DNA of 41,914 nucleotides from Bdellovibrionales bacterium. GTDB taxonomy: Bacteria > Bdellovibrionota > Bdellovibrionia > Bdellovibrionales > UBA1609. Shown in pieces: positions 1,779 to 34,844 of this stretch (positions are counted from its first letter, which is position 1; every line of letters begins with the position of its first letter). The position numbers were made by a program, and so were the translations under genes. The notes below the pieces were generated by a model that saw only the letters and a program-made list of their open reading frames with translations, searched no databases and was not told the DNA's origin. The stretch covers positions 1-41,914 of the forward strand of contig JADZEO010000160.1 in NCBI GenBank assembly GCA_020850475.1, given 5' to 3'.

Positions 1779-2657
1779 GTGCTCAAACAAGTACTTCTAG
1801 TTGCAGCTTTCTCGGTGTGGGTCATGAACTTTCCTGGCATCGCTTCTGCGCAAGAAACTGAAGATGCTTCGGAAACTTCACAGGTTCTTGAAGGCAATCA
1901 GGGCGGCGAGCAGGAGAAGTCCGACGCCGAAGTCGAAGATCTTTATGATAAATTCGACGCCACCGAAACCGCCAAGCGCGAGCAAGTGAAGAAAGGGCGC
2001 GACAAATCGCGCGAAGAACCTAAGAAGGACATTTCGACCCTTTCAGAGCTTTCGACTCTGGCTCCCTTCAGCGACATTGCCGTGATCGAACGGCGGTTCC
2101 TGCCGAAAACCAAACGTTGGGAATTTTCTGGTAGTTTACTGGGCACAATTAACAACCCATTTTTTACCAATATGGGTGCTGGTCTTCGCGGCGGATATTA
2201 CTTTCAAGAAAAGTTCGGCGTCGAGGCCATGTACTTTTTTGTTTCCTCCAATGAGCGGTCCGTGACCGACAATCTCCGCACCAAGCGAAATGTTAAGACT
2301 GAAAGTTTAGTCACTCCCAAAGGGTATTTCGGCGCTGATTTTAAATGGACACCGATGTACGGCAAAATGACCTTCATGAACAAGCGCATCGTGCCCTTTG
2401 ACTTTTACTTTTCCGCAGGAGTCGGTATGACCAATACCGATCAGGGAAACAGCGAGCCGACCCTGCATTTGGCGACGGGCCAGGCGTTCGCCCTTTCTAA
2501 GAAAATGGCGGTTCGCTGGGATCTGAGTTGGAACCTCTACCAAGCGAAGACGACTGTCGTAAAGAGCGGGGCTTCGCGTGAAACGACGGCCAATCAAGAC
2601 GATCTTTACCTGTCGCTCGGCGTGAGTTTCTTCTTTCCGGAGGCTACGTACCGATGA
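1779..2657 (+). CDS. Outer-membrane beta-barrel protein, first gene of the gliding unit
   Basis: About 292 residues. A signal peptide (VLLVAAFSVWVMNFPGIASA) is followed by a charged, probably coiled or disordered segment rich in E, K and D (about residues 25-95), then a conserved stretch with VIERRFLPKTKRWEFSG leading into a beta-barrel with aromatic strands (GGYYFQEKFGVEAMYFF, YLSLGVSFFF). This arrangement is typical of the GltA/GltB class of outer-membrane proteins in Bdellovibrio and Myxococcus. The GTG at 1779 is favoured because GGGGA sits five bases upstream; the frame stays open to a TTG at 1752. Its stop codon overlaps the next gene's ATG by four bases, which ties it to the TPR genes. 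The charged segment may reach into the periplasm toward the TPR partners (inference). Confidence 0.75.
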   Translation: MLKQVLLVAAFSVWVMNFPGIASAQETEDASETSQVLEGNQGGEQEKSDAEVEDLYDKFDATETAKREQVKKGRDKSREEPKKDISTLSELSTLAPFSDIAVIERRFLPKTKRWEFSGSLLGTINNPFFTNMGAGLRGGYYFQEKFGVEAMYFFVSSNERSVTDNLRTKRNVKTESLVTPKGYFGADFKWTPMYGKMTFMNKRIVPFDFYFSAGVGMTNTDQGNSEPTLHLATGQAFALSKKMAVRWDLSWNLYQAKTTVVKSGASRETTANQDDLYLSLGVSFFFPEATYR

Positions 2658-4225
2658 CGAAGAAACTAATGTGCTTAGTTCTGATCGCTTTACTGCCACT
2701 CGGGCTGCACGGGGCGGAAAAAAAGGCAGCCCCTCGGACGGTCACGCGTGATGCGACGACCAAAGGAAGCGCGCGGGCCGAGCTTGTTCAAGCATTGCAA
2801 CTGGTCAAACAAGGAAAGTTTCAAGCGGCTAGCGTTAAGCTCTTTCAGTTGAGTCACAATCCGCGTTTTCGAGATCGCAAAATGCAGATCAAGTATCTGT
2901 TGGGTTTGATGCTCTATCAAATGAAGATGCCGCAAGTGGCGGCCTTCCAGTTCATTAGCGTCGTCAAAGATGGTAACAACAAGTATTTGCAGCAGGCTCT
3001 CGAGAAATTGTCGCTCGCGGCGGACTCCCTTGGCGACGACACCTTGCTGAATTACGCAATTTCCCGGGTGAAGGTGGACGATTTTCCGCGAGTTCATCGT
3101 GATATGCTGTTCTTCCGAATCGGGGAGTTCCAGCTGCGCAACCAGCAGTTTGAAGCTGCGGCCGAAAGCTTCAAACGGGTGCAGCGCACCAGTGGCCTGT
3201 TTCCCAAGGCGCGGTACCTAGAGGCCTTGGCCTACACCGAAGCCAACAAGGCCAAAGAAGCCTACGAGGCGTTTGAGGACTTAGTGCAGTCGCGTGAACA
3301 GTACGGAGTTACTGATGTGGCGCGGGTGTCGGGTCTCATCGGTCAGGCGCGAATTCTCTACCAAGCCAAAAAGTGGGACGAATCAATTGAGCTTTATCGC
3401 CAAGTTCCCCGCGACACTGAGGCCTGGCACGATGTCTTCTTTGAGTCCAGTTGGGCCATGCTGCGATCTGGGCGATTCCGTTCATCTTTGAGTAACTTCC
3501 ACTCGCTCCATTCGGGATTTTATGAGGATCGATATCTTCCCGAATCGCTACTGCTAAGGGCGATCGTCTATTTGTACATTTGTAAGTATGACGAGATGGA
3601 AAAGGTTCTGAATCTCTTCAACAAAATCTATAAGCCAGTTTACAAAGATGTAACGACCTTTCTTAAAACACCCTCAGCCGACGCCTATTTCGCTGAAGTC
3701 ATTCGGGCAATGAAGGAGTTCAAAGAAAAAGGGGATCAGCTCGACAAAACTCAGTTTAAAATTCCCTTTGTCGTAACCAGAAAAATCTTTGCCGAGGGTG
3801 ATTTCCAACGCTCTTATAGTTACATCAAGAAACTGCTAGATGAGAAAAAGAGCGTTGACGACATGGACGGCTCTTGGCGGAATTCCGCGATCGGCAGATA
3901 CGCCAAGCGAGTCGTACAAAAGCGCTTAGTCAAAGCGCGCAACCGGGCCGGGCTTCAGGTCAAAGCACACCTCGACGCCGTTCGGGAAGACCTCTTTGAT
4001 CTGTTTGAGCAGGAGGGCTTCATCCGCTACGAGATGATCAATGGTAAAAAAGAAGCGCTTAAGAAAAAGCTGGCCGGCAAGGACCTGCCCGAAGAACAAA
4101 TCGATCAAGACACACAGAGAGACTATTACATTCAAAATGGGTACGAGTACTGGCCATTTAAGGGCGAGTATTGGCTAGATGAGTTGGGTAACTACCACTA
4201 TGTTGGAACGCAAAGCTGTAATTAA
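2654..4225 (+). CDS. gltC: Periplasmic TPR protein, GltC-like
   Basis: A 523-residue protein with a short signal peptide (MTKKLMCLVLIALLPLGLHGA) and a long helical region with TPR-type repeats, visible as alternating A/Y/F-rich pairs such as QGKFQAASVKLFQLS, NQQFEAAAESFKRV and EANKAKEAYEAFEDL. The last 100 residues are charged and end in a WPFKGEYWLDELGNYHY segment. In Myxococcus, GltC is a periplasmic protein that links the inner-membrane gliding motor with outer-membrane barrels. Size, export signal and place directly behind a barrel gene and before the large TPR gene fit GltC. The name rests on gene order more than on sequence identity. Translation is probably coupled to the barrel gene through the ATGA overlap. 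Confidence 0.7.
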   Translation: MTKKLMCLVLIALLPLGLHGAEKKAAPRTVTRDATTKGSARAELVQALQLVKQGKFQAASVKLFQLSHNPRFRDRKMQIKYLLGLMLYQMKMPQVAAFQFISVVKDGNNKYLQQALEKLSLAADSLGDDTLLNYAISRVKVDDFPRVHRDMLFFRIGEFQLRNQQFEAAAESFKRVQRTSGLFPKARYLEALAYTEANKAKEAYEAFEDLVQSREQYGVTDVARVSGLIGQARILYQAKKWDESIELYRQVPRDTEAWHDVFFESSWAMLRSGRFRSSLSNFHSLHSGFYEDRYLPESLLLRAIVYLYICKYDEMEKVLNLFNKIYKPVYKDVTTFLKTPSADAYFAEVIRAMKEFKEKGDQLDKTQFKIPFVVTRKIFAEGDFQRSYSYIKKLLDEKKSVDDMDGSWRNSAIGRYAKRVVQKRLVKARNRAGLQVKAHLDAVREDLFDLFEQEGFIRYEMINGKKEALKKKLAGKDLPEEQIDQDTQRDYYIQNGYEYWPFKGEYWLDELGNYHYVGTQSCN

Positions 4226-7200
4226 CAGTCGGTTCTCCCGATCTTTCTCGCGGATGTGGGTATTTCTACTCATCGTCGTAGGCCTCACTGCGTCGGGGGC
4301 GGCGCTTGCCGCCGATGACAAAGGAAAAGGCGACAAAACCGTCGGTGATGTGCTCAAAAAAATTGAAAAATCGAATCTCAAAATTCAAAAGGGGAGTGCG
4401 ACCCTTCCCAAGTTTGATGCGGTGGAGGGACGCCAACAGGTCAATCTCAGTGCGGTTAAGCCGCCGTCCTCGTCCACCCTGTATTATGAAGAGGGCTCTG
4501 ACGAAGCCGCTTTGGAAAAGGTCACTGACGAAGGCATCGACCAACTCTACGCCCTGACGCAAAAATTCAAGAACAGCAAAAAGCGCGGTGAATTGTGGTT
4601 GCGACTGGCCGAACTCTATGTCGAGAAGGCCCGCCTCATAGAACATCGCATTCAACTCGACTTTGACAAGCGTCTCCGCGAGGAAAAAGAAGGCGGGAAG
4701 CCCGTCAAGGCACGGCTCGATATGAAGCCCGCCCAAGAGTACAACAAAAAAGCGGTTCAACTCTATGAGTGGTTTTTGCGCGACTTCCCTAAAGACGAAA
4801 AAGTCGACCAAGCGCTGTTTTTTCTTGGCTACAACTATTTTGAGCTCAATGACGAACAAAAGGGGATGAGCTACTACGAGCGCCTCACCAAGGAGTTCCC
4901 CAAGAGTCCTTACGTGGATGAGTCCAACTTTGCTATCGGCGAATTCCATTTTGAAAACGAAAAGTGGGCGGAAGCGCTCGAGTACTATAAGCGAGTTGCG
5001 CAAAATCGAAGGGCGCGCCTCTATTCATTTGCTCTCTACAAATCGGCTTGGTGTGAGTACAAAGTGGGTAAAACCAAGGATGCTTTGCGCTCACTCGAGC
5101 GAGTCATCAAGGCAGGACGGGTGGCCAAGGGTTCGGACCAGCGAACTGCGGGAGGGGTCAGTCGGATCCGTCTAGCGACCGAAGCGCTCAAAGACTTGGT
5201 AATTTTTTATGCTGAAGTTGGTAGCTATAAGTCCGCACGAGCTTACTTTGACAAAGTGGCGGGCTCAAAGAACGTCTACACGCTTCAAGAGAAACTCGCT
5301 TACTATTATGCCGACACCGGCAATCGGGCGGGCGCTGCGTATGTTTTCCATGAGCTGGTCGCCGAACGCCCGAGTGCGCCCAAGGCCTATGACTATCAAT
5401 ATCAAATCGTCACGATGTACGCCGCGACGGGCGAATCAAACACCTTTCGCAAAGAGCTGTATGAGTGGATTCAAGGCTATGGCCCGGAGAGTGTATGGCA
5501 GCGGGCTAACGAGAAAAAGCGGGATTTGATTGCCAAGGCCACGCAACTCATCGAGACGACTCTGCGGAATTACATTCTTCAGCAGCATCAGACCGCGCAA
5601 AACTCGCGTGCTCCCAATGCTCAAACTCTCGCGAAAAGTGGGTATGAGCTGTACTTCCGCACCTTCAAAACCTCGCCCAAACTGGACGAAATGCACTTCT
5701 TCTTTGCTGAATTGTTGTTCGACATGAACGAGCACGAGCGGGCGGCTGACCACTATTTGTGGGTGGCGGAAAATTCTCCTCAGAGTGTCTATCACAACAA
5801 AGCAGTGTTGAACGCGGTGTTGTCGTTAGAGAAGAAGCTGCCGACGGCTGAAGAAATTAAAAAGATTGTGGGTGAGACCACCGAGCCTGTCGAATTTGAC
5901 AGCACCATCAAAAAGTTCGAAAAGGTCGTCGTGAAGTTCGTACCAGCGTCAGCCAAGAACGAAGATACGGTGGCGATCAAATACCGTTTGGCTTCGCTCT
6001 ATTACTATTACAACCAGTTTGATAAAGCATTGGCGATCTTCAAAGAAATCATGAAGGAATATCCGACCACTAAGTTTGCGGAGTATTCAGCGAATCTCAC
6101 TCTGGATATTTTTAATATCAAAAAGGACTACGACGGCCTGGAAAAAGCAGGACAAGAGATTTTGGCAATTCCCCAGATTGCGAGTTCGCCGGTTGGTGTG
6201 GAGATAAAAAAGATTCTGGAAAAAGCCACATTCAAGCGCGCCCAAAATTTGGAAACCAACAAGGACTACTTGGCGAGTGCTAAGCAGTTTGAAGAGTTCT
6301 CATTGAAGAATGCGGGTTCAAAGCTTGCCGTCTCGTCGCGCTTCAATGCCGCGGTTAACTATGAGCGCGCGGGCGATATGTTTAAAGCGATTTCGATGTA
6401 TATGGCGGTCCTAAAAGGGGCGGATGGGGCTGGTCATGAGGACCTAAAGAAAAAGTCATTGAAGTTTATCGCGATTCTGTATGAAAAGACCGGCCAGTAC
6501 AAAGCTGCCGCCGATTTCTTTGAAAAGTATGCCAACGAAAACACCAAGTCCGACCGTGACACGGCTGCCAAGTTCTACTTCAATGCCGGGGTGATCCGCG
6601 ACGGTATGAACTTCTTCAATGCCGCTCTTGATAATTATCAAAAGTCATTTGACCTCAACAAAAAGCGAGACCGCGCTGAAGTCGTATTCTTGATGGCAAA
6701 GGTTTGGGAGAAGCGCGGTAACAAATCGCGCGCCAAGAACTACTATAAACAATATATTGATCTGCAACCCGCAAACGGCGCAGCGCTTGTCGAGGCCGTA
6801 TTTACCATTGCAAAAATCGACGAGAGCCAAGGTAACCGCACACTTTCTGAAGAGGGTTTTAAGAGAACCATCTCGGTGCAAAGAAGCCTGGCGAAGTCAG
6901 GGCAAAATGTCGGTGTTTCCTATGCTGCCGAAGCGCAGTTCAAGTTGGTTTACAAGATTTATGAAGAATTAAAGGGCATCTCCATCAAAGGAAGTCAGGC
7001 GGCGCAGGCCCAAGCTGTACAAAAAAAGCTGGATCTCGTGACTCGGCTCAAAGAGAGTCTTAAGCCGGTCATTCAATATGACGACGGACCGATGGTTGTT
7101 GCTTCGTTGGCTTTGATGGGACAAGCCAATCAGCACATGAGTGCGGCCCTTTACAAAGCTCCCAAACCCAGTGGACTCACGCCTGAGCAGTTAAATGAGT

Positions 7201-7412
7201 ACATGGCGGGAGTGGACAAGGTGGCCAAACCTTTTCAGGAAGAAGCTCTCAAGAGTTATCAAAGCGCAATTGAGAAGGGTTACCGCCTCGAAGCTTACAA
7301 CCAGTGGCTCAAAGTGGCGGCGATCGAAGCCGCAAATTTAAATAAAGAACAGTCCCCTGACTTTGGCGAAGAGGCAATCTTGACTCAGCTTCCTGACGAC
7401 TTAGGAATGTAG
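4179..7412 (+). CDS. gltD: Large periplasmic TPR protein, GltD-like
   Basis: Up to 1077 residues, the largest gene of the gliding unit. After a signal peptide (WVFLLIVVGLTASGAALAA) comes a near-continuous array of TPR-like helix pairs, for example QALFFLGYNYFELNDEQKGM, KWAEALEYYKRVAQN and QYKAAADFFEKYANEN, with many Y, F, A and K residues at repeat positions. Such long exported TPR proteins (GltD of Myxococcus, NfsD in the related spore-coat machinery) are thought to form a scaffold in the periplasm. The start is uncertain: the frame opens at 4179 inside the end of the previous gene, while ATG 4254 would give a conventional signal peptide directly, though without a clear ribosome site. The next gene begins one base after its stop. 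Confidence 0.72.
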   Translation: MSWVTTTMLERKAVINSRFSRSFSRMWVFLLIVVGLTASGAALAADDKGKGDKTVGDVLKKIEKSNLKIQKGSATLPKFDAVEGRQQVNLSAVKPPSSSTLYYEEGSDEAALEKVTDEGIDQLYALTQKFKNSKKRGELWLRLAELYVEKARLIEHRIQLDFDKRLREEKEGGKPVKARLDMKPAQEYNKKAVQLYEWFLRDFPKDEKVDQALFFLGYNYFELNDEQKGMSYYERLTKEFPKSPYVDESNFAIGEFHFENEKWAEALEYYKRVAQNRRARLYSFALYKSAWCEYKVGKTKDALRSLERVIKAGRVAKGSDQRTAGGVSRIRLATEALKDLVIFYAEVGSYKSARAYFDKVAGSKNVYTLQEKLAYYYADTGNRAGAAYVFHELVAERPSAPKAYDYQYQIVTMYAATGESNTFRKELYEWIQGYGPESVWQRANEKKRDLIAKATQLIETTLRNYILQQHQTAQNSRAPNAQTLAKSGYELYFRTFKTSPKLDEMHFFFAELLFDMNEHERAADHYLWVAENSPQSVYHNKAVLNAVLSLEKKLPTAEEIKKIVGETTEPVEFDSTIKKFEKVVVKFVPASAKNEDTVAIKYRLASLYYYYNQFDKALAIFKEIMKEYPTTKFAEYSANLTLDIFNIKKDYDGLEKAGQEILAIPQIASSPVGVEIKKILEKATFKRAQNLETNKDYLASAKQFEEFSLKNAGSKLAVSSRFNAAVNYERAGDMFKAISMYMAVLKGADGAGHEDLKKKSLKFIAILYEKTGQYKAAADFFEKYANENTKSDRDTAAKFYFNAGVIRDGMNFFNAALDNYQKSFDLNKKRDRAEVVFLMAKVWEKRGNKSRAKNYYKQYIDLQPANGAALVEAVFTIAKIDESQGNRTLSEEGFKRTISVQRSLAKSGQNVGVSYAAEAQFKLVYKIYEELKGISIKGSQAAQAQAVQKKLDLVTRLKESLKPVIQYDDGPMVVASLALMGQANQHMSAALYKAPKPSGLTPEQLNEYMAGVDKVAKPFQEEALKSYQSAIEKGYRLEAYNQWLKVAAIEAANLNKEQSPDFGEEAILTQLPDDLGM

Positions 7413-7413
7413 A

Positions 7414-8292
7414 ATGAAGAAGTATTTAGTCCTACTCCATCTGATCGCTCTTTTCGGTTTGCCGATGTTAACGGCAACAGCGATGCAATTTGACGACATG
7501 GAGGGTGTCGACGAAGAGGTGGGTGCGGCCGACAATTCGGCGGCTGACGCGCCTGATGAGGGAGAGCCGGCGGAAGAAATTAAGCCGCAGGTTGAAGTCA
7601 CCAAAGAAGATCTAAATGAACTCAAAGATGCCAAGGCCAAAAACCTCGAGCCTCGAATTATCACGGCGACGGCCAAGGTTTTAGGGCGAGATCCAAACAA
7701 TCTTTTGGCCTTGAACACCTTGGCGGTGTTTTACTTTCGCGAAAAGAAATTCGGCTTAGCAAAGATCATTCTCAATCGGGCCTTGGCCGCTCATCCGAAC
7801 GAGCCCGCCCTGCACAATAACTTGGGAGTCGTCTACCTCAGCGAAGGTGATCAGCGTGCCGCAATTAAGTCACTTAAGAAAAGCCTGGAAGTTGATTCGG
7901 GCTATGCGATTGGTGCGACGAACTTGGCATCTATATATTTAGAGTATCGCGACTTCAATCGCGCTTTGGCGCCGCTTGAAAGTGGCTATAAGATCGTCAA
8001 GGGAACTCTGCGAGAAGGCAAAGCCGAAGCCGTTGGGGTGGCAAACAATTTGGCAGTCGCTTTAAGTGCGCAAAATCAGGGAAGCAAGGCGCGTGACATT
8101 TACGAGGAAATTATGCGAGGGGATTCAAGGAATGTTACTGTTTTGCTAAATTATGCTATACTTTTAGTCGAGCGATTAAAGGTCAAGGATGAAGCTTTGA
8201 AGGTGATCAGTAAGATCAAATTTATCGCTGATAACCCTAAGGCTATTCGACAAGCTGAAGAGCTTGAAAAGAAGGCCAAGTCCTTGGACTGA
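7414..8292 (+). CDS. gltE: Secreted TPR protein, GltE-like
   Basis: A 292-residue protein with a signal peptide (about residues 1-22), an acidic linker (residues 25-60) and four to six TPR units such as NLLALNTLAVFYFREKKFGL, EPALHNNLGVVYLSEGDQRA and SGYAIGATNLASIYLEYRD. There is no lipobox cysteine. In Myxococcus GltE is an exported TPR protein of the gliding complex; the position after the large TPR gene and before the small GltF-like gene supports this name. An AGGA about eight bases upstream supports the ATG at 7414. Near its 3' end lies a promoter-like TGCTATACT sequence (8154-8162), which may be chance. Confidence 0.68.
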   Translation: MKKYLVLLHLIALFGLPMLTATAMQFDDMEGVDEEVGAADNSAADAPDEGEPAEEIKPQVEVTKEDLNELKDAKAKNLEPRIITATAKVLGRDPNNLLALNTLAVFYFREKKFGLAKIILNRALAAHPNEPALHNNLGVVYLSEGDQRAAIKSLKKSLEVDSGYAIGATNLASIYLEYRDFNRALAPLESGYKIVKGTLREGKAEAVGVANNLAVALSAQNQGSKARDIYEEIMRGDSRNVTVLLNYAILLVERLKVKDEALKVISKIKFIADNPKAIRQAEELEKKAKSLD

Positions 8293-8307
8293 GACTAGGG
8301 GTTAGCA

Positions 8308-8595
8308 GTGAAGGGGCATATGAAAAGGTACTTTTTCGCTCTCATGTCAGTTTTCTTTTTATTTACTGGCGTGACTACATCTTACGGCAAAGAAGAAGCC
8401 GACAAAGACAAGAAACGCACCTCAATCAACTTTGAAGATGAGTTGATCGAAGGTGAAGTTAAAAAGCCCGAACTCTTTTATCTCCTCCAGAAGAAACAGT
8501 TTAACTTTAAGCGGCTCATCAAACTTCGCGAGAACTTTCTTCCTGAAATGCGCAGGACGGCCGAAGATTTACCTCGTGGCGGGAGTGGCGAATGA
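8308..8595 (+). CDS. gltF: Small secreted protein, GltF-like
   Basis: A 95-residue protein with a signal peptide (MKRYFFALMSVFFLFTGVTTSYG) and a compact, highly charged mature part containing INFEDELIEGEVKKPELFYL and FNFKRLIKLRENFLPEMRR. It has no recognised domain and is assigned as GltF-like only from its size, export signal and place between the GltE-like and GltG-like genes. The GTG at 8308 has AGGGG six bases upstream; an ATG at 8320 is the alternative, but its AAGGGG is only three bases away. The stop overlaps the next start by four bases. The mature part is too short for an enzyme and more likely acts as a linker or accessory subunit (inference). Confidence 0.6.
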   Translation: MKGHMKRYFFALMSVFFLFTGVTTSYGKEEADKDKKRTSINFEDELIEGEVKKPELFYLLQKKQFNFKRLIKLRENFLPEMRRTAEDLPRGGSGE

Positions 8596-10670
8596 AGCAG
8601 CCAATTGTCATTCGCATTTACCGAGGAAGCCAGCTCGAAGGGGTTAAGCAGTTTACCACTCCGCAGGTGGTCATTGGCAGTAACGATGAAGTGCAAATTC
8701 GTTTGAGCGACAACGATGTGTCGCCGTTGCATGCAGTGATTGAAGAGCGTGATGCCGGCTTTTACGTGTCGGATCTTGGTTCGGCAACCGGTACTCGACG
8801 ACACGGCGAGCGCGTGCTGGATGATCGCATCGAATCTGGTGATGTGATTGAAGTCGGACCATTCCGCCTGGAGTTCTTTGTTGGTGTGCCCAAACCATTG
8901 GCGCCACCCAAGTCCGCCCCGGCACCCGCCACCAAACCGCAATCTGGCAAAGGCAAGAAGGACGTCCCGCCGCCGACTCCTAAAGAGGAGATTACCGAAA
9001 GTGGCAAGGTCATTGAAGATGGCATTACTGCTTCGGGATTTATTATCGAGGATTCCATTACCGCAAAGATCCCTGACATCGTTCCGGACCTCCGTGAAAC
9101 CGAGGCTCCGAGCGGCGGCTCGTTCCGTTCTGAGACAGCCAGTGCTTCGAGTGGCATCAAAGTCGCAACAGTTAATGCCAAAGGGACCTTTGCACCGCCC
9201 AGCGAATTTAAGAATCTCAATGAGATCATTCGCCCGGGCAAGGGAACTGTCGTTGAAGTCCTGGTGGCTTGGCGAGAGCGGATTTTGACGTCACATCATT
9301 TTAACGAAAAAGGAATGGTGCGGATTGGTTCCGGGCCGGACAACGAAATTGTTTTGCCGGTGTTGGGACCGACCATTTCACACACCCTGGTTCGAATTGA
9401 CTCGTTGGCAACCGTCTGTGTCACCGGCGACATGTCGGGCGAGCTGGTTTCGGAAGCGGGGGTCAAGAACTTCGGCGAACTGACTCGCAGTAATCGCTTA
9501 GTAAAAAACGCCGTGGGCTACGAAATCGGCCTGGCGCAAGGCGAGATGTTACGCGTTGGGGTGCAGGGTGATTTGATAAATATTTATGTTCGTTATGTGC
9601 CGGAGGCTCCCAAACCTCTCGTTGCGCCTCTGTTGGACCTCAGTGCCTCTGAGGTTACCGGAGTTATTTTAGCGACGGTCGTATCGCTGATTTTTGGTTT
9701 GTACATGATGATCTATGCGCCGAAGAAGCTGGATGAAGAGGCGCTCCTTGAGGAACCACTGCGCAAGGCGGTAGTTACTTTTAAGCCGCCAACCCCGACT
9801 CCGAAAGAAGTCGTAGAACCCAAGACCGAGCCGGTTCCGCAAGAAAAGAAGATTGTTAAAGTCGTAGATAAAAAGAAAGAACCTCAAGCACCATCGGCGG
9901 CTATTCAAACCAAAGAAGATCCAGGCAAAGCTGCCGAGGCTCGCCCCAATCCTAACAAGTCTCCTAAAAAGACTTTGACCTCTACTCGCCAGGGCGGAGC
10001 GATTGATACAGGCAAGAAGGGTGCGAGCCCGACCAGTGAGACGGTGGATGTGTCCAAGACGGGTCTGTTGGGCGTATTTGGCAGTCGCGGAACCCAGAAG
10101 AAACTCGACAAGGCCTATACTGGATCAGGCGAACTTCAGGGAATGGCGGACTCTGCCACCGGATTTGCGGGTGATACCGAAACAAGAGCGGGCGACAACC
10201 TGGGATCAAAAATCAAAGACACCGGGCCCGGTGGCAAAGGCACGGCGACGGTGGGAATCGCGGGAGTGGGTACTTCTGGAAAAGGCGGAACAGGAAATTT
10301 TGGCTATGGAACCGGGGGGCTCGGTAAAAAGGGTCGCATCGAGGTCCAAGTCGGAGGTCAGGAAGCCGAGTTTGTGGGCGCCATTGACCGCGAAGCGATC
10401 CGCCGCGTGATCTTGGCCAACAAGAAAGTCATTCGTACTTGCTACGAAATGGCGCTGGCTCGTAATCCAGATCTTTACGGCAAACTAGTCATTCAATGGG
10501 ATATCGAAGAGCGGGGCCGTGTGACGAACGCTCAGATTGTCAGTAATACTTTGGGCAATAACACGGTTGCCACTTGTCTCGTGCAACGATTGCAAACATG
10601 GAGATTTCCGGATCCGCCACCCGATCAAATTGGCCGGGTGACCTATCCGTTTGTCTTTACATCACAATAA
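8592..10670 (+). CDS. gltG: FHA / transmembrane / TonB-like gliding protein, GltG-like
   Basis: A 692-residue modular protein. Residues 1-97 form an FHA domain (VSPLHAVI, DLGSATGT) for reading phosphothreonine, though the usual GR arginine is replaced (VIGSND) and NG is TG. A linker with a short internal repeat (ITESGKVIED and ITASGFIIED, 134-153) leads to a second FHA-like fold (about 218-335). One membrane helix follows (about 354-376), then a K/P-rich and a glycine-rich periplasmic stretch. The last 95 residues are a TonB-like AgmX/PglI-type domain (REAIRRVILANKKVIRTCYE, TWRFPDPP). This matches GltG of Myxococcus: cytoplasmic signal input, one membrane pass and a periplasmic arm that could be driven by the AglRQS motor and reach the outer membrane. 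Confidence 0.82.
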   Translation: MKQPIVIRIYRGSQLEGVKQFTTPQVVIGSNDEVQIRLSDNDVSPLHAVIEERDAGFYVSDLGSATGTRRHGERVLDDRIESGDVIEVGPFRLEFFVGVPKPLAPPKSAPAPATKPQSGKGKKDVPPPTPKEEITESGKVIEDGITASGFIIEDSITAKIPDIVPDLRETEAPSGGSFRSETASASSGIKVATVNAKGTFAPPSEFKNLNEIIRPGKGTVVEVLVAWRERILTSHHFNEKGMVRIGSGPDNEIVLPVLGPTISHTLVRIDSLATVCVTGDMSGELVSEAGVKNFGELTRSNRLVKNAVGYEIGLAQGEMLRVGVQGDLINIYVRYVPEAPKPLVAPLLDLSASEVTGVILATVVSLIFGLYMMIYAPKKLDEEALLEEPLRKAVVTFKPPTPTPKEVVEPKTEPVPQEKKIVKVVDKKKEPQAPSAAIQTKEDPGKAAEARPNPNKSPKKTLTSTRQGGAIDTGKKGASPTSETVDVSKTGLLGVFGSRGTQKKLDKAYTGSGELQGMADSATGFAGDTETRAGDNLGSKIKDTGPGGKGTATVGIAGVGTSGKGGTGNFGYGTGGLGKKGRIEVQVGGQEAEFVGAIDREAIRRVILANKKVIRTCYEMALARNPDLYGKLVIQWDIEERGRVTNAQIVSNTLGNNTVATCLVQRLQTWRFPDPPPDQIGRVTYPFVFTSQ

Positions 10671-10686
10671 GAGGGAGGGAGTCACT

Positions 10687-11364
10687 TTGGAACAAGCAGC
10701 CTACGTAAGTCGGTGCGCCGACTACGGCAACTTTATCGGGAGAGCCTTTTGCGAGGGCGGTCCCGTTATGTATCTCATTTTAATCGTCGGAATCTTAACC
10801 GTCTTTCTAGTGCTCGAGAGAGCGATGAGTCTCTCTAAGCTCACTTTGGATAAGACGAGCTTGAATGAAAATCTCTTCAGTATGTTACTGCGCGGAGATA
10901 TCAAACAGGCGATCGCCTTTTGTGACAGTCGGCCGACGCCGCTGACCAACACTCTCAAGTCCGGTTTGGTGCAAGTCATGAACAAGCGCCCGGATGAAGA
11001 AGTGCAGGTGGCGATGGATGCCGCCGTCCTTCGGGAAACGCCCCGTCTGGAAGGCTGGACTTCGTTCCTCGCGGTGTTTGGAAACGTCTCGGTGTTGATC
11101 GGACTGTTCGGAACCATTGTGGGTCTGATCACTTCGTTCGCCGGTGTGGCTGAAGCCGATGCCGCAACCAAAGCGGCGCGTTTGTCGGCGGGTATTTCGG
11201 AAGCCCTTAACTGTACGGCCTTCGGACTGCTCGTGGCGATCTGCGCGATCGTAGCCTTTGGTTTTTTTCAAATCAAAATTGGTCGGGCAATCAACGATAT
11301 GCTCGAGAGCTCAATGAATCTCATGAACTTGGTTGTTTCGAATCGCGATAAGATCAAGTACTGA
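10687..11364 (+). CDS. aglR: Gliding motor subunit AglR (TolQ/ExbB/MotA family)
   Basis: About 225 residues. Inner-membrane proton-channel subunit with three membrane segments: VMYLILIVGILTVFLVLER near the N-terminus, then a long cytoplasmic loop, then two helices with the family signature (FGTIVGLITSFAGVAEAD, and ALNCTAFGLLVAICAIVAFG). In Myxococcus AglR, with AglQ and AglS, uses proton flow to power gliding. The TTG at 10687 is preferred because AGGGAGGGAG lies just upstream; the open frame extends upstream into gltG from an ATG at 10651 that has no such site. It lies 16 bases after gltG and 13 before the next motor gene. Confidence 0.85.
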   Translation: MEQAAYVSRCADYGNFIGRAFCEGGPVMYLILIVGILTVFLVLERAMSLSKLTLDKTSLNENLFSMLLRGDIKQAIAFCDSRPTPLTNTLKSGLVQVMNKRPDEEVQVAMDAAVLRETPRLEGWTSFLAVFGNVSVLIGLFGTIVGLITSFAGVAEADAATKAARLSAGISEALNCTAFGLLVAICAIVAFGFFQIKIGRAINDMLESSMNLMNLVVSNRDKIKY

Positions 11365-11377
11365 GTAGAGGATAGTT

Positions 11378-11848
11378 ATGGCCCAAATTAGTGATGGCGA
11401 TGATGAACGGTCCGCATCGGTAGATTTAAATATCGTGCCGTTCATTGACTTGATGAGCGTGTGCATCATCTTTCTGCTCATCACCGCAGTATGGTCACAA
11501 GTCTCGATGATTCAAATTGGTAGCTCGATCTATGGCAAAAAATCGGAGCTGGAACCGGCGAAACCTCCTCCCCGCGCGGAAATCCCGTTTCGATTGGATG
11601 TCAAATCGGAAGGTTACCATGTCGTCGTAGGGCAAAAGTCAGTTGTGATCCCTAAGCTTAATGGCGACTATGACTATATAAAATTGGTAGAAGAACTGAA
11701 AACGGTAAAAGAACTCTATCCTGAAAAAATTGACGCTGTGATCACCATGTCTGATGACTTGGAATACGGATTTCTCATCAAAGGAATGGATGCTCTTCTC
11801 ACCTCGGGATTTCCAGAAATTTCAGTCGCAACAGGAGGGGTGAAGTAG
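11378..11848 (+). CDS. aglQ: Gliding motor subunit AglQ (TolR/ExbD family)
   Basis: A 156-residue inner-membrane protein with a single N-terminal membrane helix carrying the proton-accepting aspartate (NIVPFIDLMSVCIIFLLI, Asp24) and a periplasmic domain of about 115 residues. This is the ExbD/TolR arrangement; the aspartate is the residue essential for proton-driven rotation in this family and is present. Which of the two TolR-like genes matches AglQ and which AglS is inferred from order (R-Q-S). Its stop overlaps the next start by one base (TAGTG), so the two TolR-type subunits are probably made in fixed ratio. Confidence 0.82.
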   Translation: MAQISDGDDERSASVDLNIVPFIDLMSVCIIFLLITAVWSQVSMIQIGSSIYGKKSELEPAKPPPRAEIPFRLDVKSEGYHVVVGQKSVVIPKLNGDYDYIKLVEELKTVKELYPEKIDAVITMSDDLEYGFLIKGMDALLTSGFPEISVATGGVK

Positions 11849-12459
11849 TGCCTATCCATGTACCAGGTCATCGAAATCGGTCCGGACGAGCCAAGAAGCC
11901 GAAGAAACGCAATGCGGTTGCAGTGCTGTCGCTAACGGCGATGGTCGACATGTTTACCGTTCTTACGGTCTTCCTTCTGCAAAACTATGCGACCACCGGT
12001 GAAGTGATCTTTATCCCGAAAGAAGTAAAACTCCCGCAAGCTCACACCGTCAAAGAACTCAAACCTTCGAACGTGGTGGTCATCTCCAGTGACCGGATCA
12101 TGGTCAATAACGATCAAGTCGCTGAGTTTCAAGCGGTGAAGGAACAGCAGGACTGGGATATTCCGGCCCTCAAAGATCGCGTGGTAGCGCTGATCGAGGA
12201 AGGCAAAAAAGAAGAGTCAACGCTGGGTAGTCGAGTGCGCAAGGCGATGACGGACTCCAAAGAACCTGGTGCTGCGGAAGAGGAAGAGGATCAAGTTCCT
12301 CAGTATATGAAGATCACGATCCAAGCCGATAAGTCGGTTGATTTTCTCACGGTCAAAAAAGTCATGTACACCGTGACGGAAGCGGGAATTGCCGAAATCA
12401 ATTTTGCGGTGATAAAGCTTCCTGATGAAATCAAAGAACCGTCAGGTGACGGCTCCTAA
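11848..12459 (+). CDS. aglS: Gliding motor subunit AglS (TolR/ExbD family)
   Basis: A 203-residue protein starting at GTG. It has a strongly basic N-terminal tail (HRNRSGRAKKPKKRN), a membrane helix with the conserved aspartate (LSLTAMVDMFTVLTVFLL, Asp34) and a periplasmic domain. Compared with TolR/ExbD (about 140 residues) it carries an extra charged insertion, about residues 115-152, with a run of glutamates (GAAEEEEDQ). The aspartate suggests a working proton path. It is the last gene of the gliding unit; 23 bases later the opposing GYF-PilZ gene ends. Confidence 0.8.
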   Translation: MPIHVPGHRNRSGRAKKPKKRNAVAVLSLTAMVDMFTVLTVFLLQNYATTGEVIFIPKEVKLPQAHTVKELKPSNVVVISSDRIMVNNDQVAEFQAVKEQQDWDIPALKDRVVALIEEGKKEESTLGSRVRKAMTDSKEPGAAEEEEDQVPQYMKITIQADKSVDFLTVKKVMYTVTEAGIAEINFAVIKLPDEIKEPSGDGS

Positions 12460-12482: not shown

Positions 12483-13181
12483 TCAAGCGGCATTACGTAC
12501 GGAAGTCGTGAGTGCAGAGTGTTTGATGTACTCAATCAAGATCGACTTGGACTCAGTCGAAATCTGACTAAATTGAATCCCCGTGTAGCCGCTTTCGGTG
12601 GTGTAGCGAACTTCGCCCTTAACGCGAATCGGTTCCGTTAGCGAGGAACTCTTGATCTCCATTTGGATTTCCTGCCCAGGATGAACACCATTAAGGCCCG
12701 TGACCCCGACACCGCCTTGGCTGACCGTGTGGAGCTGCGCGATCGTAATGAGATCGTCTTTGTTGATGGTGATCGTTCCCTTGATTCGAGCCCGAGGGTG
12801 TTCGCGACGGTTAACGCCGACTTCATCCATCACATCATGAAATTCATAGACTGGCGCCCAGCCCTTCATGCCTTTGCTCCAAAGCATGACACCTTGAAAG
12901 GAAGTGAGTTTGGTTAGGGCGGAGACCAGCTCCTCCCGACTCATAGGGCCATGAGACTGGCCATCGGCGGCGAAATGCCAGCGGCGATTTTCGACGGAAA
13001 AGACTTGGTTTTCTTGTAAGCGGGGCAACTCTTTTTCCCACCACGCGAGCGAGCGCCAATCGGTTTGTCCTCTTCCCCAAATTAAGCAGTTGGGGGGTAG
13101 ACGCCCCATCTTGCCCTTGACCTCTTCAGTCGAGAAAGGACCGCTCACATCTTCATCAATCGTCAAAAACCACTTGCTCAT
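12483..13181 (-). CDS. GYF-GYF-PilZ protein (possible c-di-GMP adaptor)
   Basis: A 232-residue cytoplasmic protein without signal peptide. Residues about 1-50 and 64-115 are two GYF_2-type domains (KWFLTIDEDVSGPFSTEEV with LIWGRGQTDWRSL, and WHFAADGQSHGPMSREELV with MLWSKGMKGWAPV). Residues about 125-225 are a PilZ domain with the arginine motif RREHPR and VSQGG in place of the usual D/NxSxxG, so the first Asp/Asn is missing while Ser and Gly remain. PilZ domains bind c-di-GMP; GYF domains bind proline-rich peptides, and a GYF domain occurs in the gliding regulator GltJ of Myxococcus. The ATG at 13181 gives the shorter form; a GTG at 13190 is also possible. It converges on the gliding unit, which suggests but does not prove a motility role. 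Confidence 0.75.
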   Translation of the reverse strand: MSKWFLTIDEDVSGPFSTEEVKGKMGRLPPNCLIWGRGQTDWRSLAWWEKELPRLQENQVFSVENRRWHFAADGQSHGPMSREELVSALTKLTSFQGVMLWSKGMKGWAPVYEFHDVMDEVGVNRREHPRARIKGTITINKDDLITIAQLHTVSQGGVGVTGLNGVHPGQEIQMEIKSSSLTEPIRVKGEVRYTTESGYTGIQFSQISTESKSILIEYIKHSALTTSVRNAA

Positions 13182-13324
13182 ACCCCACACTTTTCGGCAG
13201 TCTAAGTCCTTAACTTTAGATGGAAAACGGGTGCGTTAAATGGACCCTGGACCTCATCTGACCATGAGCTCCGGTACCATTCTTGCGAAGAGTGGAGAAA
13301 CTCGCGAAGTTCGTGCCAAATCCG

Positions 13325-13339: not shown

Positions 13340-13359
13340 AGCGAAGGGTGTTTTTAACC

Positions 13360-14331
13360 ATGAAGATCGGTAAATTTCTCTTGGGACTGCTGATTGTTCT
13401 CCTTGTTGTGGAGATTCTCGTGGTTGCGCCCAGAGATGTTGACCAATCCGAGTCAGAAGCAGTTAAAGATGAGCCGCAAGAGCCGGCCTCGGGTATTGAG
13501 CAGCTGATGCGCGGGGCTCACCTAGTTGAAACGCGCGAAGGGGAAAAAGAGTGGGAGTTGTGGTCCGACACTGCCACCAGTTACAAGCAGAAAGCCCAGT
13601 GGTCACTTCAGACGGTAAAGACCCAGTTTTTTGGTAAGGATGGCGTGCATTTTATCGTTACAGGAGAACGGGGTTCGGTGCAGGTCCAGACGACGGATAT
13701 GACGGTCTTGGGCAACGTGAAAATCCGTTCGTCCAACGGCTACGTGTTTAAGACTGAAGCGGTTGAGTATCACTCGGTTCAGCGGAGATTGATTGCACCC
13801 AAACCGGTGACCATGTGGGGACCTCAGGATGAAACCGGGAACTCCCTGTTTTTGCGCGGCCAAAGTCTAGAGGCTGACCTCAACAACGCACTGATGACGG
13901 TTCACCGTGATGTCAAAGGCGAGAAGTCATTTAAGGGCGACAAGCGATTGCAAATCCGCAGTCAGCGAGCAGATTTTAGCGGCAAATCCAACTTGGCGCG
14001 ATTTTCGGGCGAAGTGGTGATGGACTTTGAGTCGATGCGGATTACTGGACCAGAGGCGGTTTTTGAGTACGGTCCGGATGCGAATCTGGTCAAGTCCGTG
14101 CACGTCTCGGGGGGCGTTCGGGTGAGTGACCTCGATAAGTGGGCGACCTCTCAAAAAGTAAGTGTTAACTTTGACAAAGATAAATATGTTTTTCGGGGGA
14201 ACCCGAAGGTTGTGCAAAACAATGATGAGTTGCAAGGAGAGGAAATTGTCTTTCTTGAGGGGGGCCGCAAAGTCGAAGTGCTTAAGGCCCGCGCCAAAGT
14301 GGATAAGTCTCGATTGGAGAAAGTGAATTGA
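13360..14331 (+). CDS. lptC: LptC-LptA fusion, lipopolysaccharide transport
   Basis: About 323 residues, against roughly 190 for E. coli LptC. An N-terminal membrane anchor ([18 protein letters not shown]) is followed by an LptC-like periplasmic domain to about residue 180 ([46 protein letters not shown]). A second OstA/LptA-like beta domain follows, about 195-310 ([45 protein letters not shown]). LptC receives lipopolysaccharide from LptB2FG and LptA carries it across the periplasm; here both seem joined. The ATG at 13360 has GAAGGG eleven bases upstream (a GTG at 13348 is the alternative). The stop overlaps lptB by four bases. Confidence 0.82.
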
Positions 14332-15050
14332 ATCAGCTGAGCATCCAAAACATTTCGAAAAAATTTAAGCTCCGACAAGTGGTCAAAGGGGTTTCCTTTA
14401 AGGTCCAGTCGGGTGAAATCGTCGGTCTCCTAGGTCCCAATGGAGCGGGCAAAACGACCAGTTTTTATATGGTAGTGGGGCTTCTGAGCCCCGATGAGGG
14501 AGAGATCACTCTCAATGACCGGGCAATTGGATCATTGCCGATGTACAAGCGAGCCCGGATCGGTCTGAGTTACCTGCCCCAGGAGGCAAGTATTTTTCGC
14601 CGCCTGACAGTTGCCGAAAACATTATGGTGGCACTCGAGGCCCACGGCTATACGGGTTCCGATAAACTCGAGCGCCTGGACCAGCTCCTCACGGAATTTC
14701 GCATCGACCACGTCCGCGACAGTTATGGCTACTCTCTCTCGGGAGGGGAGCGGCGGCGGGTTGAAATTGCCCGGGCTTTGGCCGGGCAGCCCAAGTTTCT
14801 GCTGCTCGACGAACCTTTTGCGGGAATCGATCCCATCGCTGTCGGCGATATCCAAGAAATCATTCGCCAGTTGAAGGCCAAGGGCATCGGGGTCTTGATT
14901 ACTGACCACAATGTTCGCGAGACACTTGGTATCTGCGATCGAGCCCACATTCTCAAGGAGGGCAAGATCGAAGTCGAGGGAAGTGCCCAGGAAGTGGCGC
15001 AGTCGCCTGTTGCCAGAAAGTTTTATCTAGGCGAAAATTTTAGACTGTAG
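14328..15050 (+). CDS. lptB: LptB, ATPase of the lipopolysaccharide exporter
   Basis: A 240-residue ABC ATPase. Walker [10 protein letters not shown] (residues 36-44), the Q-loop region [14 protein letters not shown], which is characteristic of LptB, signature [15 protein letters not shown], Walker [13 protein letters not shown] and switch histidine (TDHNV) are all present. It powers lipopolysaccharide extraction from the inner membrane with LptF and LptG, which are not in this window. It starts at TTG, overlapping the lptC stop by four bases and with GGAG about nine bases upstream. The lptC-lptB-rpoN-hpf order is common across Proteobacteria and supports the call. Confidence 0.95.
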
Positions 15051-15060
15051 GAGTGATGGA

Positions 15061-16515
15061 ATGGCAATGAACCTGAAGATGAGTATGAAGCTTTCGCAGC
15101 AGCTGCGGATGACCCCACAGCTGCAGCAGGCGATTAAGCTCCTCCAGCTCTCGCGAATGGAGCTCGAAACCCAGGTTCGTAAAGAATTGACCGAAAATCC
15201 GGTGCTCGAGGAAATCCAAGAGACCACCGAAGATGACCCCGCTCCCAAGGCCGCCACCACCAGTGAGGATTCTCGAACGACAGGGACCGAGGTGCCCGAG
15301 GGCGGCCAAGATCAAGACCCCCGTAAGCAGGACGAGTTTGATTGGGACACCTATTTTGAAAACCAGTATAAACCACCGCAGAGTTCTGGAGGTGGCAACG
15401 AAGAGATCATGAACTACGAAAACGTGATCTCGGCTCGACAAACCCTGCACGACCATCTGGTGTGGCAGGCCGGACTGGCTGGTTTTAACGAAGAAGAGAT
15501 GGCACTGATCAGCGTTCTCATTTCCTACGTCGACGATGATGGGTATATCAAAATTCCACTGCAACAAATGGCAGAAGAAGAGGGACTCGACGTCGCCGAT
15601 CTCGAAGATGTATTACCTTTCTTGCAAGAATTTGACCCGCCGGGAGTGGGGGCGCGAGACCTCAAAGAGTGTTTGCTGATTCAAGCCAAGCACATTGAGG
15701 AGGACACCAACGACCTGGTTCGCCTGATCAACGATCACCTCAAGGATCTCGAGAAAAAGAACTATCAAGCAATTTCCAAGGCAATGAGCATCGAAATGGC
15801 CGATGTCGTGGAAATGTGTAAAATCATTTATTCGATGGATCCCAAGCCGGGTCGGGCGTACCTGCCGCAGGACACTCACTTTATCACTCCCGACGTGTAC
15901 GTTTACAAAGTGGGCGAAGAATACATCGTATCGCTGAACGAAGACGGCCTACCTCGCCTCAGAATTTCTAATCTTTATAAAAATGTGCTTAAAGGCGGCG
16001 ACGCCGTCGGCGCGAACTCCGAAGCCCAGGAATACATTCAAGACAAGCTGCGATCGGCCTTGTGGTTGATCAAGTCCATTGCTCAGCGCCAACGGACCAT
16101 TTACAAGGTGACCGAAAGTATCGTGCGCCACCAGCACGACTTCTTCGAAAAAGGCCCCGCGTTTATTAAGCCGATGATCTTAAGAGATATTGCCAACGAC
16201 ATTGGCATGCACGAGTCCACGGTCAGCCGGGTGACGACCAACAAGTACGTTCACACTCCGCGAGGGATCTTTGAGCTGAAGTACTTCTTCAATTCGGGAA
16301 TTAACAAAACCGATGGTGATTCCCTGGCCAGCGAGTCCGTGAAACTCAAAATTAAGCAACTGGTCAGTGAAGAAGATGTTAAAGATCCCCTCTCAGATCA
16401 GCGGATTGTGGAACTACTCAAGAAGGACGGGATCAAAATCGCTCGCCGCACAGTTGCGAAGTACCGCGACGTTTTAAAAATCTTGCCATCCTCAAAGCGT
16501 AAGAAGTACTTCTAG
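15061..16515 (+). CDS. rpoN: RNA polymerase sigma-54 factor RpoN
   Basis: A 484-residue full-length sigma-54. The glutamine- and leucine-rich region I (SQQLRMTPQLQQAIKLLQLS) binds activators; an acidic region II follows (about 60-115). The core-binding and DNA-binding regions include the HESTVSRVTTNKYVHTPRG helix-turn-helix, and the RpoN box ARRTVAKYRD lies at about residues 461-470, reading the -24 promoter element. It directs transcription that depends on enhancer-binding ATPases. It starts ten bases after lptB with GGAG upstream and is followed at four bases by the alkyltransferase gene. Confidence 0.97.
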   Translation: MAMNLKMSMKLSQQLRMTPQLQQAIKLLQLSRMELETQVRKELTENPVLEEIQETTEDDPAPKAATTSEDSRTTGTEVPEGGQDQDPRKQDEFDWDTYFENQYKPPQSSGGGNEEIMNYENVISARQTLHDHLVWQAGLAGFNEEEMALISVLISYVDDDGYIKIPLQQMAEEEGLDVADLEDVLPFLQEFDPPGVGARDLKECLLIQAKHIEEDTNDLVRLINDHLKDLEKKNYQAISKAMSIEMADVVEMCKIIYSMDPKPGRAYLPQDTHFITPDVYVYKVGEEYIVSLNEDGLPRLRISNLYKNVLKGGDAVGANSEAQEYIQDKLRSALWLIKSIAQRQRTIYKVTESIVRHQHDFFEKGPAFIKPMILRDIANDIGMHESTVSRVTTNKYVHTPRGIFELKYFFNSGINKTDGDSLASESVKLKIKQLVSEEDVKDPLSDQRIVELLKKDGIKIARRTVAKYRDVLKILPSSKRKKYF

Positions 16516-31760: not shown

Positions 31761-31820
31761 CTTTAACGGATTAGGGTATTTACTGCGCCGAAGCATACAT
31801 CTTTGAAGGGGCAGCACAGA

Positions 31821-32876
31821 ATGTTTTTCCCGAGCAAAAAGATCATCGGCCTCGATGTGGGGACGAGTACGATCAAAATTGCTGAGCTCGATGTTACTCG
31901 CAAGGGCGCTAAACTCATTTCATTCGGTCTTACGCCCACGCCCAACGGCGCGGTGATCGGCGGCGAAGTCATGGATAGCCAGGCGATCTCCGAAGCGATT
32001 CGCCGGATGTTAGCTGAAGTCAAAACCAAGCGCAAGAATGTGGCCACGGGACTTTGGGGAACCGCCATCATCGTCAAAAAAATTACTATCCCGCGCATGG
32101 ATGAAAACCTTGTTGCCGAGCAGATTCGCTGGGAAGCCGAACAGTACATTCCTTTTGACGTCAACGAGGTGAACCTCGAATACAAAATTCTCGAGAAGGT
32201 CAACCAGAGCGCGGAAACAATGGACATCATTCTCATCGCTGCTCGCCAGGAAAATGTCTTTCGTTACGCCGAAATTGTCGAATCATCAGGCCTCATTTGT
32301 TCCATCCTGGATGTGGGAGGGTTTGCTCTCGCCAATTGCTTTGAGAGCAACTATGGCGATATGACGGGCAACGTGGTGGGACTGCTTAACGTCGGCGCCA
32401 GTGTTACCAACTTTGTGGTGGTCGAAAGTGGTGAGGTGGTCTTTTGCCGAGATATTCCAGTGGGTGGAATGACCTATAACAACGAAGTGCAAAAGGCGAT
32501 GGGCATCAGCATGGAAGAGGCCGAAGCCCTCAAGATTGCTCACTCCGGAGGGCAACCCGGGCCAGATGAATTGGGACGCGTGATTCAATCGACGCACGAA
32601 GTGGTTTGCGACGAAATCCAAGGAAGTTTGGATTTTTTCAAAAACACCTCCGCCTCAGGCTCGATCACTCACTGCTTTATTACCGGGGGAGGAGCTCGGA
32701 CCGGGGGGCTGAGGGAAAATTTATCGCGTCACATTGGTTTGCAAGTCGAAGTCTTCGATCCGTTCATTAACATTTCGTACAATGATCGAGTGTTTTCTCC
32801 GGATTACATTTCACAAATTCGTGATTTTTCATCAGTGGCGATGGGCCTAGGAATGCGCGAGTTAGGTGATGCATGA
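31821..32876 (+). CDS. pilM: Type IV pilus assembly protein PilM
   Basis: A 351-residue cytoplasmic, FtsA/actin-like ATP-binding protein. The phosphate-binding loop GLDVGTSTIKIAEL is near the N-terminus and the second actin-type motif HCFITGGGARTGGL is near residue 295. PilM binds the cytoplasmic tail of PilN and joins the pilus motor to the alignment complex. The ATG at 31821 has AAGGGG ten bases upstream and is preferred to the TTG at 31803. It overlaps pilN by four bases. Confidence 0.94.
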   Translation: MFFPSKKIIGLDVGTSTIKIAELDVTRKGAKLISFGLTPTPNGAVIGGEVMDSQAISEAIRRMLAEVKTKRKNVATGLWGTAIIVKKITIPRMDENLVAEQIRWEAEQYIPFDVNEVNLEYKILEKVNQSAETMDIILIAARQENVFRYAEIVESSGLICSILDVGGFALANCFESNYGDMTGNVVGLLNVGASVTNFVVVESGEVVFCRDIPVGGMTYNNEVQKAMGISMEEAEALKIAHSGGQPGPDELGRVIQSTHEVVCDEIQGSLDFFKNTSASGSITHCFITGGGARTGGLRENLSRHIGLQVEVFDPFINISYNDRVFSPDYISQIRDFSSVAMGLGMRELGDA

Positions 32877-33469
32877 TTAAGATTAACCTTCTGAAAAATC
32901 GCTCGATGCAGGGGGGTGGCGACACCACCTACGCGGTTTCAATCGATCGTGGCGGCAACGAGGTTCAGAAGGAAGCGGTTATCAAGATCCTCTTGATGGG
33001 GATTTTCGCCGTCGTTTTGGTCTTTGTCGAAAACCACAATGTTGATTCTCTTAAAGAGGAGCAACAACGGTACATGATTCAACTCAATGAGCTGCAGTCT
33101 CAGGTCGACAAGCTAAAGGGCGAAACCACCAAAGTGGCGGAACTTGAAAAGCAGTCCAAAGAGCTCGAAGACAAAATGAAGATCATGAAGCAGCTTTCTA
33201 AGACCCGTCTCCGCGAGTTGAAGGCACTCGATTACCTGCAGTCGGTGATGCCCGAGCGGGTGTGGTTATCGGCGCTGATCTACAATGAAGAAAAGTTTAA
33301 TCTGCGCGGGTATGCGTTGACCGATGACGACCTCACGGACTTGATTCAATCCTTGGACAAGAGCACCTTTTTTACTGACGTCATTCTGCTGCAAGCCAAA
33401 GAGCAAAATACTCCGGAAGGAACTTTGAAGAACTTTGAGATTACCGCCGGGATTGGAGCGGTCGAATGA
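32873..33469 (+). CDS. pilN: Type IV pilus assembly protein PilN
   Basis: A 198-residue inner-membrane protein. The N-terminal tail begins IKINLLKNR, a form of the INLLPxR motif that docks into PilM, with the proline changed to lysine. A membrane helix (KILLMGIFAVVLVFVE) is followed by a coiled coil (about 60-105) and the periplasmic ferredoxin-like domain (VWLSALIYNEEKFNLRGYALTDDDLTDLIQSL, split here by domain features). It pairs with PilO. Four-base overlaps on both sides couple it to pilM and pilO. Confidence 0.9.
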   Translation: MIKINLLKNRSMQGGGDTTYAVSIDRGGNEVQKEAVIKILLMGIFAVVLVFVENHNVDSLKEEQQRYMIQLNELQSQVDKLKGETTKVAELEKQSKELEDKMKIMKQLSKTRLRELKALDYLQSVMPERVWLSALIYNEEKFNLRGYALTDDDLTDLIQSLDKSTFFTDVILLQAKEQNTPEGTLKNFEITAGIGAVE

Positions 33470-34814: not shown

Positions 34815-34844
34815 CCGCAGATTGAGCAACTAGGAGTATCAAGG

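Follow-up and report, generated by a model that had tools for sequence, protein, structure and literature searches.

A one-piece Glt-Agl cluster of a Bdellovibrionales bacterium and its relation to Bd0828-0838 of Bdellovibrio bacteriovorus HD100

Glt-Agl sets described in Bdellovibrio and Myxococcus

Four tonB-like/agl operons, Bd0828-0838 included, were reported in B. bacteriovorus HD100 by Lambert et al. in 2010 (PMC2797640). In 2011, Luciano et al. counted Bd0828-0838, which lacks gltH-K, among four expanded core sets, considered it the strongest candidate for a gliding apparatus in Bdellovibrio, detected a two-hybrid contact between AglR and GltG, and found that gammaproteobacterial core complexes also keep core and motor in one locus (PMC3169522). 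An insertion mutant in aglS (Bd0838) was defective in prey attachment, killing, and rounding (Duncan et al. 2019; PMC6561027). As for the other sets of HD100, a 2022 paper presented Bd1480 as a surface-induced aglQ (PMC9140294), and in a 2025 proteome Bd2368-2377 was associated with exit from prey and Bd0411-0421 with the early bdelloplast stage (PMC12546842). The gliding machinery of Bdellovibrio was called unidentified in a 2026 review (PMC13104615), and in our literature search we found no published gliding assay of the Bd0828-0838 set, referred to here as set 1. In Myxococcus, the Nfs spore-coat machinery contains the same Glt-like protein set as Agl-Glt and is driven by the same AglRQS motor (PMC3858216), whereas the nfs cluster itself, which has a sporulation role, contains no motor genes.

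We analyzed a stretch of 41,914 nt (the window; 51% G+C) from a Bdellovibrionales genome of 3.91 Mb in 175 contigs. The locus in the window is the standard set-1 Glt-Agl cluster of its order, which is already published for Bdellovibrio and is not new. It shares ten genes and their order with Bd0828-0838 of HD100 and is orthologous to it in both trees described below, but the gap between the two barrel genes is 137 bases in the window and 13 bases in HD100, and the gene content just 3' of aglS differs. We estimate a probability of about 0.75 that the cluster, as the orthologue of Bd0828-0838, represents the ancestral set-1 Glt-Agl machine of the order, combining a motor, envelope-spanning force transfer, and surface or prey contact. 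The locus bears on the question of which Glt-Agl set moves Bdellovibrio relatives and which serves contact with prey or surfaces.

Gene content and protein identities

Nine intact genes followed one another on the forward strand in the order barrel, gltC, gltD, gltE, gltF, gltG, aglR, aglQ, and aglS. The original prediction, made from the DNA alone, had put their spacing at overlaps or gaps of at most 16 bases; the widest gap was 15 bases, between gltE and gltF, and the other genes overlapped or were separated by 1 to 13 bases. The single barrel of that prediction, at 1779-2657, was confirmed (TIGR04565, 6.9e-33), but another barrel of the GltA/GltB type at 880-1614 on the same strand (TIGR04565, 1.7e-26) had been overlooked. 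The latter was kept upstream of the former across the order and belongs to the conserved set, which thus has two barrels, like GltA and GltB in Myxococcus; two barrels of the Myxococcus-type comparison genome also matched TIGR04565. The longest reading frame of the second barrel began at TTG 1752, and GTG 1779, which gives a clean signal peptide, is a plausible start. From the sequences, signal peptides were read at the N-termini of both barrels, GltC, GltD, GltE, and GltF.

Every product of the cluster was homologous to a Glt or Agl component. GltC (2654-4225), GltE (7414-8292), GltF (8308-8595), and GltG (8592-10670), all on the forward strand, had the expected NCBIfam families as their best matches over long stretches: NF033756 (5.5e-64) for GltC, NF033758 (2.2e-18) for GltE, NF033764 (3.8e-13) for the small exported GltF, and NF033760 (5.5e-78, full length) for GltG. 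The NF033764 family is named CglF, and CglF and GltF are one protein (PMC4488436); the predicted small GltF-like protein was thereby borne out. All four scores were under the curated equivalog cut-offs (217 of 450, 66 of 225, 49 of 90, and 263 of 650 bits, respectively), which the Myxococcus-genome proteins cleared, and the cut-offs are evidently tuned to myxobacterial members. GltC and GltE are exported TPR proteins; GltE is a lipoprotein in Myxococcus, whereas that of the window had no lipobox. For the large exported TPR protein GltD (4203-7412, forward strand) there was no family model among the NCBIfam matches, and its identity rests on a profile that we made from the GltD proteins of the order, which gave 539 bits with Myxococcus GltD, 532 bits with the Nfs counterpart, and about 20 bits with other TPR proteins. 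The anticipated homology of the three TPR proteins with GltC, GltD, and GltE was thus found.

The motor genes, likewise on the forward strand, were aglR (10681-11364; PF01618, 4.9e-27), aglQ (11378-11848; PF02472, 5.4e-14), and aglS (11848-12459; PF02472, 2.4e-12). Pfam assigns AglR to the MotA/TolQ/ExbB proteins and the other two to the ExbD proteins; AglQ and AglS have a membrane aspartate at Asp24 and Asp34, respectively. The aglR gene may start at TTG 10651 or at GTG 10681. When the Myxococcus genome was searched with AglR, the top match was the AglR of the motor locus M1 (43% identity, 148 bits), and the runner-up scored 81 bits.

GltG had been called an FHA-TonB protein. The cytoplasmic FHA domain (PF00498, 3.8e-13) and the match to GltG held, but the periplasmic tail beyond the single membrane span was of the AgmX/PglI type (NF033768, 9.2e-31) and a poor match to TonB_C (PF03544, 0.028). 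This bears on a reading of the cluster as a system of the TonB/Tol kind, for uptake or for upkeep of the outer membrane and with no part in movement, which would account for the ExbB/ExbD-type motor, the TonB-like tail, and the label of tonB-like operons in early papers (PMC2797640). However, full-length proteins of the Glt type for C, D, E, F, and G stood in Glt order, no TonB-dependent receptor was present among the neighbouring genes, and PF03544 was weak against the strong AgmX/PglI match; we consider such a system very improbable.

The cluster had also been described as a complete gliding-machine core. This did not hold, since proteins essential for Myxococcus gliding were missing: GltH and GltI had no match in the host genome or in HD100, and GltJ was matched in both only by the shared C-terminal tail. 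Of the partners predicted to lie outside the window, GltH, GltI, and GltJ were not found in the genome, whereas the polarity GTPase MglA is encoded on another contig (C64; 197 aa, 72% identical to that of HD100 and 61% to MglA of the Myxococcus genome). This gene ruled out an absence of MglA control. The predicted single transcription unit was scanned for promoters and terminators, and the counts were no better than those of shuffled sequence.

Conservation of the arrangement and phylogeny of the sets

We searched 192 genomes of the phylum for full-length GltG, and all the listed members of the same order had a match. Gene order was then compared in 36 order-level loci, namely the window, HD100 (taken to be comparison genome G073), and 34 others, each read to the limit of its contig or of the stretch that was fetched. 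Within that reach, the arrangement barrel-barrel-gltC-D-E-F-G-aglR-Q-S was identical in all 36, except that the first barrel of one locus (L041) lay on the opposite strand. GltG identity among these loci dropped to about 40%, and gene order kept despite such divergence excluded chance clustering. Three genomes from other families of the phylum (f9 and f12) had no aglRQS beside the glt locus, and their AglR matches were on other contigs, which marks the one-piece form as typical of this order. The predicted separation in Myxococcus was verified in the Myxococcus-type comparison genome, which we take to be M. macrosporus: gltA/B/C were at 2.95 Mb, gltD-G at 6.01 Mb, and aglRQS at 8.16 Mb. The barrels of the GltA/B type, GltC to GltG, and the three motor proteins all have homologues in the Myxococcus Agl-Glt system (clusters G1, G2, and M1), but that system is split over these three loci and has GltH, I, J (and K) in addition, whereas the window set is in one piece. 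Since the arrangement is both order-wide and published, the notion of a compact and remarkable machine for gliding was not upheld; as a new compact version the arrangement was ruled out by HD100 and the papers of 2010-2011 (PMC2797640, PMC3169522).

In a tree of AglRQS with 55 rows, the window set and Bd0828-38 of HD100 formed a 100/100 clade. A wider 100/98 clade contained set 1, the Myxococcus M1 motor, Anaeromyxobacter, Sorangium, and several Bdellovibrio-type paralogous sets, and inside it set 1 and the M1 motor stood at an open fork. The gammaproteobacterial sets fell outside this clade; the gammaproteobacterial/Geobacter core complex resembles the window in having GltC, D, E, G, and AglRQS in one locus, but it forms a separate clade and its AglQ aspartate is usually an asparagine. 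A lone AglRQS without glt genes seen beside it was located elsewhere in the host genome (C80:15975-17710; positions 6975-8710 of locus L279), with both aspartates kept; its branch was long and placed close to the motors of myxobacteria.

The tree of GltC, GltD, and GltG again placed the window set with set 1 of HD100 at 100/100, and Myxococcus Glt and Nfs clustered together to the exclusion of the window set with moderate support (85/92). By this grouping, the window set is co-orthologous to both. The HMMs of the order scored Glt and Nfs proteins about equally (GltC 284 and 257, GltD 539 and 532, and GltG 308 and 314 bits). Sequence alone therefore cannot select a gliding role over a polymer-moving role. 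Several paralogous sets were also detected in the host genome, on contigs C73, C113, C81 with C21, C48 with C146, and C43, the last with no visible motor, in parallel with those of HD100; they were examined region by region, two being cut by contig ends, and C81/C21 and C48/C146 are probably the halves of two split sets.

One possibility is that gliding is powered by set 1 alone, as a compact counterpart of the Myxococcus machine that lacks GltH-K. In favor of it, HD100 is able to glide, the host genome encodes MglA, set-1 AglRQS groups with the Myxococcus motor clade, and Bd0828-0838 was the favored candidate of Luciano et al. (PMC3169522). Against this, set 1 was equidistant from Glt and Nfs, and GltH, I, and J, which are needed for Myxococcus gliding, were absent from the host genome. 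Set 1 moreover has several paralogous counterparts that are expressed differently (PMC2797640, PMC12546842): in HD100 it is not set 1 but Bd2368-2377 that has its peak at the exit stage, when gliding is presumed (PMC12546842), and Bd1480, of another set, that increases on surfaces (PMC9140294). The published Bd0838 phenotype concerns attachment and killing, in an assay other than gliding. We regard a dedicated gliding machine as doubtful, and the specific gliding role that had been assigned to the cluster was not sustained, given the co-orthology and the paralogous sets. Somewhat less probable still is an Nfs-like role, in which the set would move or compact an exported polysaccharide or coat and defects in adhesion or motility would be secondary. 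The grouping of Glt with Nfs apart from the window set, the nearly equal HMM scores, and the service of one motor to Nfs as well in Myxococcus (PMC3858216) would agree with it, as would the LPS-transport genes downstream; the cluster contained no polysaccharide export genes, however, and the neighbourhood of LPS genes may be coincidental.

We favor the set-1 Glt-Agl machine named at the outset. By analogy with Myxococcus, AglR, AglQ, and AglS would form a proton-driven inner-membrane motor acting, through an AglR-GltG contact, on GltG with its cytoplasmic FHA domain and periplasmic TonB-like tail. Force would be relayed via the periplasmic GltC, D, E, and F to the two outer-membrane barrels and to the cell surface, where the machine may move or engage surface material on contact with a substrate or prey, a role suggested by HD100. 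The lack of GltH, I, and J, the exit-stage and surface-related expression of other HD100 sets, and the verdict of the 2026 review (PMC13104615) count against this reading as well. Gene content, gene order, orthology, signal peptides, and conserved motor aspartates are observed features of the cluster.

Motor aspartates and GltD-GltE fusions

The two membrane aspartates, AglQ Asp24 and AglS Asp34, were both kept in all 36 set-1 orthologues. The AglS aspartate was kept in 152 of 152 sets (one Myxococcus set being counted twice), whereas 36 of the 116 non-set-1 sets had Asn, Ser, or Ala in place of the AglQ aspartate, proportions that are not population estimates because the sample was drawn by a pattern favoring high-G+C AglR genes. 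The sets with a replacement were mostly gammaproteobacterial, usually with asparagine; 31 of the replacements were in loci among L071-L189. Four paralogous sets of the host genome (C73, C81, C113, and C48) had also lost the AglQ aspartate, as had the set at 1.39 Mb of HD100 (L274), whose aglQ position fits Bd1480; published work has used Bd1480 as a gene for a proton channel. The equivalent change in Myxococcus, AglQ D28N, abolishes proton conduction and motility (PMC3858216). A literature search for AglQ, AglS, and heterodimer together returned no paper, and we count the pattern, with the AglQ aspartate always present in set 1 and often replaced elsewhere, as a new detail. From these losses one can predict the motors that would work with AglS alone. 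Being universal in the order and having both motor aspartates, set 1 is the first choice for deletion.

In 10 of the 36 order-level loci (L032, L033, L035, L040, L041, L042, L043, L052, L053, and L062), GltD and GltE were joined in a single protein of about 1230-1300 aa, GltE minus its signal peptide forming the C-terminus. Two loci outside the order (L063 and L065) looked fused as well. On the tree, the fusion state required five changes, at least three of them forced by well-supported branches, which indicated that fusion or splitting occurred more than once. The fusions suggested that GltD and GltE act side by side in the periplasm; they predict direct contact, which is open to structural work, and are consistent with a fixed ratio for that pair only. 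We count them also among the new details of this analysis.

Together, these details allow a bolder proposal, which we put forward tentatively and think rather unlikely as a whole. Set 1 would be a machine for contact in general, shared by the whole order, and not one for gliding, and GltD and GltE would form one physical periplasmic arm. Agl motors would fall into two classes, a two-carboxylate class (set 1 and Myxococcus M1) and a one-carboxylate class (most gammaproteobacterial core complexes and several Bdellovibrio-type paralogous sets, including that fitting Bd1480), in which AglQ lacks the aspartate and proton carriage would be possible only via AglS.

Downstream of the cluster, a GYF_2 and PilZ protein was encoded at 12483-13190 on the reverse strand, convergent with aglS, and homologues occupied the same place in 13 relatives; it is a possible cyclic-dinucleotide link. 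It was followed at 13348-16515 by an LptC/LptA-like gene, an LptB-type ABC ATPase gene, and a sigma-54 gene, and the LptC/LptA-like gene was near aglS in many relatives, HD100 among them. Type IV pilus genes, including those for PilM and a PilQ-type secretin, were located at 31803-37121, 19-25 kb downstream of the cluster.
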